In this document: positions 41,049 to 46,984 of the stretch, one piece after another
Layout of the letters: each line of letters begins with the position of its first letter
How positions within the stretch are numbered: the first letter of the stretch is position 1
DNA from: an uncultured Chloroflexota bacterium
Lineage (GTDB): Bacteria > Chloroflexota > Chloroflexia > Chloroflexales > Chloroflexaceae
Direction: 5' to 3'
Assembly (NCBI GenBank): GCA_937120965.1
Contig: CAKZKA010000258.1
Span: forward strand, 1-46,984
Length of the DNA stretch: 46,984 nucleotides
Notes under the pieces: generated by a model
The model's input: only the letters and a program-made list of their open reading frames with translations
Databases searched by the model: none
What the model was told of the DNA's origin: nothing
Position numbers and translations under genes: made by a program

Positions 41049-42353
<1,305 letters not shown>

Positions 42354-42604: not shown

Positions 42605-43654
42605 ATGATGAAACCCATCCGGCCCGTAGGTCTGATCGGCTACGGCGCTTACGTCCCGCGCTACCGCATCGCCGGACGGGAAATCGCCCGCATGTGGACG
42701 GACGGACAGGGGGGGGTGCCGGTAGAGGCAAAGAGCGTTCCCGGCCCCGACGAGGACGTGATCACCATGGCCATCGAAGCCGGACGCAACGCCCTGGCCC
42801 GCGCGGCTCTCCCTGCCGAGCGGCTGAGCGCGGTGTGGGTGGGCAGTGAGAGCCACCCCTACAGTGTGAAGCCTTCGGGCACGGTGGTGGCCGAGGCCCT
42901 GGGCGCCTCACACTGGATCAGCGCGGCTGACTGGGAGTTCGCCTGTAAGGCCGGCTCCGAAGCGTTGACCGCCAGCATGGCCCTGGTGGGCAGCGGCATG
43001 GCGGACTACGCCCTGGCCATCGGCGCCGATACCGCCCAGGGGCGCCCCGGCGACGCCCTGGAGTACACCGCCTCTGCCGGGGCGGGGGCGCTGCTGGTTG
43101 GCCCTGCTGAGGAGGCCCTGGCGACGATTGATGCTACGGTGTCGTATGTGAGCGATACGCCCGACTTCTACCGCCGGGCCGACCGGCCCTACCCCGTGCA
43201 CGGCAACCGCTTCACAGGGGAGCCGGCCTACTTCCACCAGATCCAGTCGGCAGCGCGGCGCCTGCTCGACGAGCTGGGGCGCTCGGCCGCCGATTTTACC
43301 TACGCCGTTTTTCACCAGCCCAACACCAAGTTTCCGCAGACGGTGGCCCGGCGCCTGGGTTTCAGCGAGGAGCAGATCGCCCCGGGCCTGCTCAGCCCGC
43401 GCATCGGCAACCCCTACTCGGGCGCGGCTCTGGTGGGACTGTGCGCCATCCTCGACGTGGCGCGTCCCGGCGACACGATCTTTATGACCACCTACGGGAG
43501 CGGAGCCGGCTCCGACGCCTATGCCCTGACCGTAACCGAGCGGTTGCTCGCCTGCCGTGAGCGCGCTCCGCTGACGGCGACCTACCTGGCGCGGGAGGTT
43601 TTTGTGGATTATGCTACCTACGCCCGATGGCGCGGTAAGCTGGTGCTGGGGTAG
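42605..43654 (+). CDS. HMG-CoA synthase, archaeal type
   Basis: 349 residues. It condenses acetyl-CoA with acetoacetyl-CoA to form HMG-CoA. The nucleophile Cys is in DWEFACKAGSEALTASMA (near 114), the general-acid Glu region is VGSESHPYSVKPSGTVVAEA, and the His is in YAVFHQPNTKFPQTVARRLG. IGNPYSGAALVGLCAILD and YGSGAGSDAYALTV complete the archaeal-type pattern; this group differs from eukaryotic HMGCS. AAGGAG lies 8 bases before the ATG at 42605, and a second ATG follows at once. In archaea it acts in a complex with a thiolase and a DUF35 protein, relatives of which are encoded downstream. Confidence 0.93.
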   Translation: MMKPIRPVGLIGYGAYVPRYRIAGREIARMWTDGQGGVPVEAKSVPGPDEDVITMAIEAGRNALARAALPAERLSAVWVGSESHPYSVKPSGTVVAEALGASHWISAADWEFACKAGSEALTASMALVGSGMADYALAIGADTAQGRPGDALEYTASAGAGALLVGPAEEALATIDATVSYVSDTPDFYRRADRPYPVHGNRFTGEPAYFHQIQSAARRLLDELGRSAADFTYAVFHQPNTKFPQTVARRLGFSEEQIAPGLLSPRIGNPYSGAALVGLCAILDVARPGDTIFMTTYGSGAGSDAYALTVTERLLACRERAPLTATYLAREVFVDYATYARWRGKLVLG

Positions 43655-44232
43655 TGTGGGGCAAGCCGGTTTTCCTCCTCCACAGGCAGGGGCGTGGGGA
43701 AACCCGGTTTCCCCATCGGCTTGCCGCCCCCACAAGGGGTATGGGGAAACCTGGTTTCCCCGTATGTTCACCTCACCCTCCCACCAGGGAGGGGTGTGGT
43801 TCGGCAAGCTCACCACAGGTGGGGAAACCCGGTTTCCCCACCCTCCAACCGCCGTTGGGGGCGCCTGGCATCCCGATGAACGGGAGTGGAGGGAACCCCG
43901 GGTTCCCTATGTTCACGTTAGACGGTCATGCGGCTGCGCCGCACAACGACAAGATGAAAATGGGTTTTTCTTGGGAGGGCTGCGCCCTCCCAAACCCTCC
44001 CGCGGGCGGGCTATTTTCACCTCAGGCCCCATGCGCGGAGCGCACACCGCCGCGATGACCATGACCATGGGGCGTCTCTGGGAGGGCCACCCCCTCCCCG
44101 GCCCTCCCCCGCTGGGGGAGGGAACCGGGCGCCTCCCCGCAGGGAGGGGTGCGGTTCGACAGGCTCACCGCAGGTGGGGAAACCTGGTTTCCCCGTATGT
44201 TCACCTTAGAAGTTACGAAAAGGGGCTTACCT
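43655..44232. repeat. Long repeat array between HMG-CoA synthase and the thiolase-like gene
   Basis: About 580 bases without a gene. There are at least five GGGGAAACCCGGTTTCCCC-type palindromes (near 43695, 43742, 43822, 43889 and 44177), the GGCTGCGCCGCACAACGAC module with GGGAGGGCTGCGCCCTCCC (43930-43995), and a single copy of the ~184-bp unit at about 44030-44210. Confidence 0.85.
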
Positions 44233-45408
44233 ATGTCAGGAGCATATCTGATCGGCGCGGGCGCCACGCCGGTGGCGGAGCACTACGGGCGCGGCCTGGC
44301 CGATCTGGCGAGTGAGGCGACGCGGGCGGCCTTCGCGGGGTTGCCGGAATTCGTGTCGCACCGGGTGGGGGCGCTCTACGTGGCCAACGCGCTGGGTGAT
44401 CGCCTGGCGGCCCAGGCCCACCTGGGGGCCTACCTGGCCGCGGCGGTGGGCCTGCACGGCGTGCCGGCGGTTCGCGTGGAGGCGGCGGGGGCGAGCGGCG
44501 GCGTGGCCATCCACCAGGCGGCGCAGGCCATTGCCGCCGGGGCAGCCGAGATCGTGGCCGTACTGGGGGTCGAGAAGGTCACCGACCAGCTCGATGACGC
44601 GGTCGAGGCCGCGCTGGCCCTGGCCGGCGACGCCGAAACCGAAGCCATTCACGGCCTGACCCTCACCGCCCAGTGGGCCATGCTGATGCGCCGCTACATG
44701 CACGAGCACGGCTACGGCCCCGAGGCCTTTGCGCCCTTCCCGGTCAACGCGCACGCCAACGCGGCGAAGAACCCCCAGGCGCTCTACCGCTTTCCGATTA
44801 ACGCCGACAAGTACCGGAAGGCCGCTATGGTCGCCTCGCCGCTGAACATGCTCGATTGCAGCAGCGTGGCCGATGGCGCGGCCTGCGTGGTGCTCGCCGG
44901 CGAGCGCGTGGCCCGTGAACTGGCCGCCGAGGGTGTGCCGCTGGTGCGGCTGGCGGGCGTGGCTGTGGCGACCGATACCCCGGCGCTGGCCCTGCGCGCC
45001 GATCCGCTCGACCTGGCCGCAGCGCGGGCCAGCGCCCACATCGCCCTGGGGCGCGCTCATCTGGGCCTGAGCGATGTGGAGGTTTTCGAATTGACCGACC
45101 CCCACGGCATCGCGGCGGCACTGGCCCTCGAAGCTATGGGCTACTACGAACGGGGCGCCGCGCCCCGCCACGCCGCCGATGGCGCGATCACCCCCACGGG
45201 CCGCACGCCCATTGCTACCGCCGGGGGCTACAAGGCCCGCGGCGACGTGGCCGGCGCAACCGGGGTGTACCAGGTCGTTGAATTGCTACGCCAACTGCGC
45301 GGCGAAGCTGGCGCCACTCAGGTGCCCGGAGCGCGCGTGGCCCTGGCGCAGTGCCTTGGCGGGGTGGGCGCCACGGCCGTGAGTTGTGTGCTGGTGGTCG
45401 AGCGGTAG
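44233..45408 (+). CDS. Thiolase-like protein lacking catalytic residues
   Basis: 391 residues of the SCP2/archaeal acetyl-CoA acetyltransferase type. The fold is clear: YLIGAGATPVAEHYGRGLAD, LYVANALGDRLAAQAHLGAY, RYMHEHGYGPEAFAPFPVNA, SPLNMLDCSSVADGAACVVL. The active site is not. The nucleophile segment, normally EAACASG, reads EAAGASG with Gly86. The His of the usual EVHDCF segment is Thr288 (ELTDPHG). The GHP motif before GATG reads GDV, with Asp338. A normal thiolase reaction is therefore unlikely; a structural role with HMG-CoA synthase and the DUF35 protein is possible. The ATG at 44233 follows an AAGGGG-type site, and the codon Gly86 is GGG, two changes from TGC. Confidence 0.85.
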   Translation: MSGAYLIGAGATPVAEHYGRGLADLASEATRAAFAGLPEFVSHRVGALYVANALGDRLAAQAHLGAYLAAAVGLHGVPAVRVEAAGASGGVAIHQAAQAIAAGAAEIVAVLGVEKVTDQLDDAVEAALALAGDAETEAIHGLTLTAQWAMLMRRYMHEHGYGPEAFAPFPVNAHANAAKNPQALYRFPINADKYRKAAMVASPLNMLDCSSVADGAACVVLAGERVARELAAEGVPLVRLAGVAVATDTPALALRADPLDLAAARASAHIALGRAHLGLSDVEVFELTDPHGIAAALALEAMGYYERGAAPRHAADGAITPTGRTPIATAGGYKARGDVAGATGVYQVVELLRQLRGEAGATQVPGARVALAQCLGGVGATAVSCVLVVER

Positions 45409-45622: not shown

Positions 45623-46234
45623 ATGTTCCAGCAAATGATCAACGGCAGCATCGCGGTCCTGACGCGTCCGTCGGCTTCGACCTTCGAAGAGCACGAGCAG
45701 AACAACCTGGGGTGGGCGCTGATCTACTCCCTGATAGCCGGCGCGATCAACGCCGTGATCGCCTGGATCGGTTCCATACTGTTTCCGCAGGAGATACCGG
45801 TTTTCGAGCCGGGTATGGAGGCTGCCCAGCCAGGTCTCTTTGCGCTGATCTTCGGCACACTGATCGGTACCGTCATCTTTCTTTTGATCTACTGGGGAGT
45901 TGTCTACCTGCTCGGTCGGGCCTTTGGCGGCACCGGCGAGTTCGGTGAGCTAGCCTACGGCTTCGCGTTGTTCAGCGCGCCGCTGGCGGTAATCAGCAGT
46001 GTGGGTGGCATCATCCCCCTGGTGGGTGGCTTCATTGCCTTCGCCGTGTGGATTTACAGTCTGTACCTGACCTATCTGGCCATCCAGTCGGGTATGAACC
46101 TGCCGGCGAATAAGGCGCTGTACGTCATTCTGATTTTATTTGCGATCGTTCTGGCGATCGCGCTGTGCGTCGGAATCTTCTTCGCCGCGATTATTGCGGC
46201 GATACTCGGCGCCTCGGGCGGTTTTTCGCCCTGA
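45623..46234 (+). CDS. YIP1-family membrane protein
   Basis: 203 residues with about five hydrophobic membrane segments (WALIYSLIAGAINAVIAWIG, FGTLIGTVIFLLIYWGVVYL, AVISSVGGIIPLVGGFIAFA, LYVILILFAIVLAIALCVGI). The pattern of short loops, with YLLGRAFGGTGEFGELAYGF, is that of YIP1/YIPF-related bacterial proteins of unknown role. The start ATG at 45623 follows GAGGAGG at 45612-45618. It lies between the thiolase-like and DUF35 genes, only 36 bases before the latter, and is probably cotranscribed with it. Confidence 0.8.
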   Translation: MFQQMINGSIAVLTRPSASTFEEHEQNNLGWALIYSLIAGAINAVIAWIGSILFPQEIPVFEPGMEAAQPGLFALIFGTLIGTVIFLLIYWGVVYLLGRAFGGTGEFGELAYGFALFSAPLAVISSVGGIIPLVGGFIAFAVWIYSLYLTYLAIQSGMNLPANKALYVILILFAIVLAIALCVGIFFAAIIAAILGASGGFSP

Positions 46235-46270: not shown

Positions 46271-46666
46271 ATGGAAATTGCCCGTCACTGGCGCCAGCGC
46301 GCCACGCGGTATCGGCTCGAAGGTCAGCGCCACCGTCACACCGGAGTGGTTCGCTTTCCGCCCCAACCCGCTGCTCTGGGTGAAGATCCCGAAATGTGGG
46401 AACCCGTGGCCCTCAGCGGTCGCGGCGAACTCTACAGCTTCAGCGTGCTGCGGCAGCCTCCCGCTGGCTATGAGAGCTTCGGCATCTACGCCGTGGGGAT
46501 GGTGCGGCTGGAGGAAGGCCCCCTGGTGAGCGCGCAGCTTACCGACTGCGCTGAAGCGGATCTCGTCATTGGCATGCCGGTCGAGATGGTGACGCGGCGC
46601 CTGGCCGATACGGGTGAGGACGGGGTTCTCGTCTACGGCTACAAGTTCCGTCCCCGGCTGAGGTAA
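46271..46666 (+). CDS. DUF35 OB-fold protein without zinc-ribbon cysteines
   Basis: 131 residues. GVVRFPPQPAALGED near the N-terminus matches the FPPR region of DUF35 proteins, and GELYSFSVLRQPPAGYESFG with YAVGMVRLEEGPLVSAQL is the acyl-CoA-binding OB-fold part. In typical members two CxxC pairs form a zinc ribbon around FPPR. Here the corresponding stretch is RHRHTG and the second pair is missing; the only cysteine is in LTDCAEAD. The protein therefore probably binds no structural zinc. In archaea, DUF35 holds thiolase and HMG-CoA synthase together. The start ATG at 46271 has only a weak GTGAGG upstream. Confidence 0.82.
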   Translation: MEIARHWRQRATRYRLEGQRHRHTGVVRFPPQPAALGEDPEMWEPVALSGRGELYSFSVLRQPPAGYESFGIYAVGMVRLEEGPLVSAQLTDCAEADLVIGMPVEMVTRRLADTGEDGVLVYGYKFRPRLR

Positions 46667-46984
46667 AAAAAGCCCGCCCGCGGGAGGGTTTGGGAGGGCG
46701 CAGCCCTCCCAAGAACAATACTATTTTCATTCTGGCGTTGTGCGCCCCGCGCATGGGGCCTGATGTGAACATACGGGGAAACCGGGTTTCCCCACCTGCG
46801 GTGAGCCTGTCGAACCGAACCCCTGCCTGTGGGGAAGCCAGCCGCTCCCACCAGCAGTTGGGACATGGGGAAACCGGGTTTCCCCAACCCCTCCCTGTGG
46901 GGAGGATCCCGGTTCCCTCCCCCAGCGGGGGAGGGCCAGGGAGGGGGCGGCCCTCCCAAAGACGCCCCATGTTCATCGCGGCGT
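46667..46984. repeat. Terminal repeat block, inverted module
   Basis: About 318 bases without a gene at the right edge. They contain the inverted CCCTCCCGCGGGCGGGC tail with a seven-base A-tract, GGGAGGGCGCAGCCCTCCC (about 46692-46710), GTTGTGCGCCCCGCGC and two GGGGAAACCGGGTTTCCCC palindromes (about 46775-46793 and 46866-46884). From 46740 on, the sequence is the reverse complement of the ~184-bp unit seen at 26703-27218. Confidence 0.8.

Follow-up and report, generated by a model that had tools for sequence, protein, structure and literature searches.

Why would a bacterium keep, in the operon of its mevalonate pathway, a thiolase devoid of its catalytic cysteine and of both catalytic histidines? 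The question is raised by a Chloroflexota contig analyzed here over 46,984 nucleotides (the window), in which an operon opens with HMG-CoA reductase (HMGR; 41049 to 42353, + strand; PF00368 388 bits, TIGR00532) and continues with an archaeal-type HMG-CoA synthase (HMGCS; 42605 to 43654, +; TIGR00748 478.6 bits against a cut-off of 353) whose Glu82, Cys114, and His237 are intact. There follow a protein of the archaeal-type (SCP2-like) thiolase fold (44233 to 45408, +), here termed the pseudothiolase, a Yip1-domain membrane protein (45623 to 46234, +), and a DUF35/OB-fold partner (46271 to 46666, +; PF01796 73 bits). The order HMGR-HMGCS-thiolase-DUF35 is conserved; the Yip1 gene, placed between thiolase and DUF35 in the family of the window, is missing from most other operons, and its product is therefore probably not part of a complex. 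Palindromic repeats (43696 to 44194, unstranded) occupy the space between HMGCS and the pseudothiolase, two genes that nearly abut in many relatives. The repeat, GGGGAAACCnGGTTTCCCC, is a REP-like element with 18 sites in the window between 1428 and 46885 at no more than two mismatches, where 0 are expected, including those at 43696 to 44194 and a group at 46775 to 46885.

The pseudothiolase is translated from a full-length, stop-free reading frame of 391 amino acids, as the original prediction had described it, and belongs to the thiolase family by its Pfam matches (PF22691 119.8 bits, PF00108 56 bits, both above cut-offs). It scores below the curated models for acetoacetyl-CoA thiolases, reaching 267.7 bits for NF053570 (equivalog cut-off 600) and 333.4 bits for NF004720 (subfamily cut-off 420). 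When aligned residue by residue, the Cys, His, and His of the thiolases from Pyrococcus furiosus (7yvy) and Methanothermococcus (6esq) fall opposite Gly86 (EAAGASG, residues 83 to 89), Thr288 (ELTDPH, residues 286 to 291), and Asp338 (ARGDVAGATG, residues 335 to 344), so that the proposed loss of all three catalytic residues proved exact. The nucleophilic cysteine and the two catalytic histidines of an SCP2-like, archaeal-type acetoacetyl-CoA thiolase are thus absent, and a new histidine stands at position 291. It is very improbable that the protein is still a thiolase working through other residues such as Cys374 and His291: Cys374 does lie near the second catalytic cysteine of type II thiolases ('QCLGG'), but its position varies between Cys, Ser, Thr, and Val across the order, which rules out a rescue of the site by this residue, and the order has no Cys at position 86 and changes at both catalytic His positions.

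These replacements extend far beyond one contig. Searched at the protein level, 93 of 150 genomes of the class gave matches, and we read 60 loci of the order to which the window belongs (Chloroflexales/Herpetosiphon type). Position 86 is Gly in 59 of these and Thr in the remaining one, and never Cys; position 288 is Thr, Ser, or Cys in 59/60, with His retained in a single locus (L060); position 338 is Asp or Asn in all 60. His occupies position 291 in every locus, where live enzymes carry Phe or Tyr, and the motif DPH or DQH replaces D[AC]F. Across a 25-sequence alignment with identities down to 48%, Gly86, Asp289, and His291 are invariant. Independently fetched, named contigs of Chloroflexus, Roseiflexus, Oscillochloris, Chloroploca, Herpetosiphon, Kouleothrix, and others gave the same result, while nearly all ANME-1/Methanophagales relatives in that set retain the Cys and the first His. 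Two loci, L060 and L133, keep His288 beside the new His291 (HDPH), possibly a halfway stage toward losing the catalytic histidine. L133 comes from a Thermoflexus metagenome-assembled genome (MAG), and its operon, like those of L139 (Singulisphaera MAG) and L141 (Gracilibacteria MAG), closely resembles the operons of Roseiflexaceae or Chloroflexaceae; all three are probably misbinned contigs. A second thiolase-like paralogue, with Thr for the catalytic Cys (EAATATG), occurs in three genomes (L061, L062, and L069 in G086, G123, and G148); it keeps both catalytic His where the C terminus is present, and the flanks that were read hold no HMGCS match beside it.

Could the gene nevertheless be decaying? 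Against seven relatives, dN/dS of the pseudothiolase ranges from 0.055 to 0.117, near the values of HMGCS (0.027 to 0.123) and HMGR (similar) and below those of the Yip1 protein (0.12 to 0.29), the ratios of the more distant pairs being rough because dS is high there. The pseudothiolase is under purifying selection. A pseudogene or an assembly error has next to no probability, given open frames in many independent assemblies, complete genomes among them, and dN/dS of about 0.1; together, conservation across the clade and dN/dS rule out both a pseudogene and a sequencing error, in agreement with the earlier view that neither a sequencing error nor a young pseudogene is at hand. Relative to its partner, the protein has diverged faster: the ratio of thiolase to HMGCS distances is 1.05 in live forms, 0.90 in archaeal ones, and 1.71 and 1.86 in two dead groups, a rise that fits a protein freed from the constraint of catalysis but still held by others.

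If selection holds the protein in place, the operon indicates with what. HMGCS, pseudothiolase, and DUF35, the three subunit genes of the archaeal-type complex, lie together in the window and are adjacent in essentially every operon of the order with enough flank, usually with HMGR just upstream (in Herpetosiphon-type families it is sited elsewhere). Glu, Cys, and His of the HMGCS active site are retained in 111 of 112 sequences, the exception being a distant ORF, L167. Presence and absence also go together in the order genomes sampled: four of them (G106, G028, G129, and G144) have neither an archaeal-type HMGCS above the cut-off nor the pseudothiolase and keep HMGR. Two genomes depart from this pattern, one with HMGCS and no thiolase, on a contig that ends just past HMGCS (G140), and one in which only part of a thiolase and no HMGCS was detected, likely because of a contig edge (G137). 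Among the four, G106, G028, and G129 are 95 to 100% complete and possess HMG-CoA reductase; the archaeal-type model and two other HMGCS models found no HMGCS in them, and they have no DXR.

Acetoacetyl-CoA can be expected from elsewhere. The genome of the window encodes four thiolases of type II, in which the Cys, GHP, and CxGGG motifs are present; it has no DXR, so the mevalonate route, and hence HMGCS, should be needed. Matches to PF02803 were obtained in 59/60 genomes of the order, the one without (G090) being 92% complete. Outside the order, a strong type II match accompanies all 24 dead-form genomes vs 8 of 13 live-form ones (Fisher p 0.003, phylogeny-uncorrected).

Those 37 genomes, tabulated from HMGCS-positive members of other Chloroflexota classes taken with their flanks, show that the order is not alone: the thiolase is live (Cys, His, His) in 13 and dead in the other 24, where Gly, Glu, Asp, or Gln replaces Cys. 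Over all dead forms the residues in place of Cys86 are Gly, Glu, Asp, Gln, and Thr, and such variety fits loss rather than one common new chemistry. A tree built without the catalytic columns requires three changes of state, which means at least three losses of the Cys, provided that a Cys with two His cannot be regained. They fall in an ANME-1 archaeon (L162, to Asp), in L063 (to Glu), and, once or more often, in the main Chloroflexota group, where 62 dead rows (L063 excluded) form a single, unsupported clade in a quick tree. In L162 (Methanophagales AOM70-1) the Asp-bearing thiolase adjoins HMGCS, and loss of the Cys is accordingly not confined to bacteria.

The partner has changed too. All zinc-ribbon cysteines are missing from the DUF35 protein of the window, which scores below the cut-off of the zinc-ribbon model, and the alignment lacks them throughout the order and in L063; the order therefore has no zinc-ribbon DUF35 of the kind found in the known complex. 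The CxxC pairs (CxxC...CxxC) are kept by the DUF35 proteins of live-form and of other dead-form Chloroflexota operons wherever the complete gene was read, and in ANME-1 loci a DUF35 gene was not recognized as the next ORF. A zinc-free DUF35 is unusual, since zinc is bound at equivalent positions in every DUF35 protein whose structure had been characterized up to 2019 (PMC6996347). With regard to its extent, then, the original prediction understated the case: the replacement is clade-wide, it is seen again in other parts of the phylum, and DUF35 is altered as well.

What remains of the protein is an intact thiolase fold according to the AlphaFold2 monomer model, computed from the 25-sequence alignment (pLDDT 86.4, pTM 0.90). 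Its best structural matches are 6esq (Z 56.8, rmsd 1.9 Å, 386 residues) and 7yvy (Z 54.3). The latter, P. furiosus PFC_04095, is also the nearest in sequence among solved structures (44% identity over the VIA alignment), but retains Cys and both His. A fused CoA-binding site common to thiolase and HMGCS has been reported for the archaeal complex (PMC12329534, PMC6996347), and DUF35 reportedly holds it. Our system resembles that complex in the adjacency of the same three families, in having 6esq as its top match by Z, and in the retained HMGCS residues, and differs in the loss of the thiolase Cys/His/His and, in the order, of the DUF35 zinc ribbon, its assembly being a prediction from the genes. 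Acetoacetyl-CoA reportedly passes through the shared CoA site of the archaeal complex. If HMGCS takes its substrate by way of such a site, the thiolase body cannot be given up even where its chemistry has become dispensable, and this dependence would account at once for why the gene is retained and linked, why it diverges faster, and why the Cys was lost.

We therefore consider it likely that the pseudothiolase has been retained as an obligate structural and CoA-docking subunit of an archaeal-type thiolase-HMGCS-DUF35 assembly, which would obtain its acetoacetyl-CoA from type II thiolases. In the course of events that we envisage, type II thiolases elsewhere in Chloroflexota genomes would make acetoacetyl-CoA, the operon thiolase would then have lost its nucleophile and acid/base histidines, and the protein would now only dock and position acetoacetyl-CoA and hold the complex together; absence of the Cys may also prevent the cleavage of bound intermediate back to acetyl-CoA. 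We infer the complex from homology and operon order, and its formation, the CoA docking, the lack of thiolase activity, and the protective role are each put forward as predictions. A precedent for a dead subunit of the thiolase superfamily serving as obligate partner of a live one is KS-beta, the chain length factor of type II polyketide synthases, which differs from the pseudothiolase in family, pathway, and partner. Several points weigh against our reading: the old active site holds an invariant His291 and a conserved Asp/Asn338, although a scaffold as such would have no need of them; the DUF35 of the order has no zinc ribbon, so that its complex may be put together otherwise than the archaeal one; and G090 gave no PF02803 match.

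The main rival takes up the first of these points and supposes a neofunctionalized enzyme in which Asp289, His291, and Asp338 form the core of a rebuilt site that serves another CoA-thioester reaction, such as a retro-aldol cleavage, a decarboxylation, or a hydrolysis. The invariance of Gly86, Asp289, and His291 in the alignment of the order speaks for it, as do the steroid aldolases Ltp2 and Sal (6OK1, 9MYR), thiolase relatives bound to DUF35 in which the HDCF motif is changed and of which Sal carries Gly at the Cys position (PMC12329534), as the pseudothiolase does with Gly86. These aldolases nonetheless belong to another pathway, match our model less closely (Z 45 vs 57), and use a YDHF/YDCY motif with a Tyr base (PMC12329534), for which the pseudothiolase has TDPH and no such Tyr. 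Trypanosoma brucei SLP, an SCP2-thiolase-like protein (5AB4-7), similarly lacks the thiolase cysteines (PMC12329534) but has a YDCF motif, no DUF35 partner, and no HMGCS operon. Furthermore, the other dead lineages adjoining HMGCS share no new signature, none of the order loci with enough flank places the protein away from HMGCS, and divergence relative to HMGCS is faster than in live forms. We regard neofunctionalization as rather unlikely, and new chemistry in general is disfavored by the diversity of signatures and the strict tie to HMGCS. A narrower form, to which we would likewise give only a minor chance, would have the disarmed thiolase and zinc-free DUF35 of Chloroflexales act through the rebuilt pocket (Asp289, His291, Asp338), performing new chemistry or gating on acetoacetyl-CoA for HMGCS, a step that would be performed by no known complex of this type.

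In proposing a pseudoenzyme that scaffolds or regulates HMG-CoA synthase, the original prediction had joined two roles. The scaffold part is the best supported: the operon linkage is conserved, the gene comes and goes with the archaeal-type HMGCS, the HMGCS residues are intact, selection is purifying, and the genome has type II thiolases at other loci. For the regulatory part, an allosteric regulator that senses CoA or acetyl-CoA in the old site and tunes HMGCS activity, operon linkage is favorable, and a ligand site may persist, as 56 of the 102 columns conserved in live forms are unchanged in the order; sequence cannot separate this role from docking, and we think it improbable, more so than a rebuilt active site.

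Taken together, the protein is a real, clade-wide, and recurrent pseudothiolase, which probably belongs to a modified form of the archaeal-type thiolase-HMGCS-DUF35 complex already known; in the literature searched we found no published description of Cys-less thiolases beside HMGCS. If the docking role is correct, a core metabolic complex thought to couple the uphill thiolase step to HMGCS would more than once have given up the chemistry of its thiolase while retaining the polypeptide, separating a scaffold and CoA-docking role from catalytic coupling and making the need of archaeal-type HMGCS for a thiolase body directly testable. The annotation as acetyl-CoA acetyltransferase would then be wrong for these genes throughout the order and in many further Chloroflexota, Roseiflexus and Chloroflexus being among the genera concerned.
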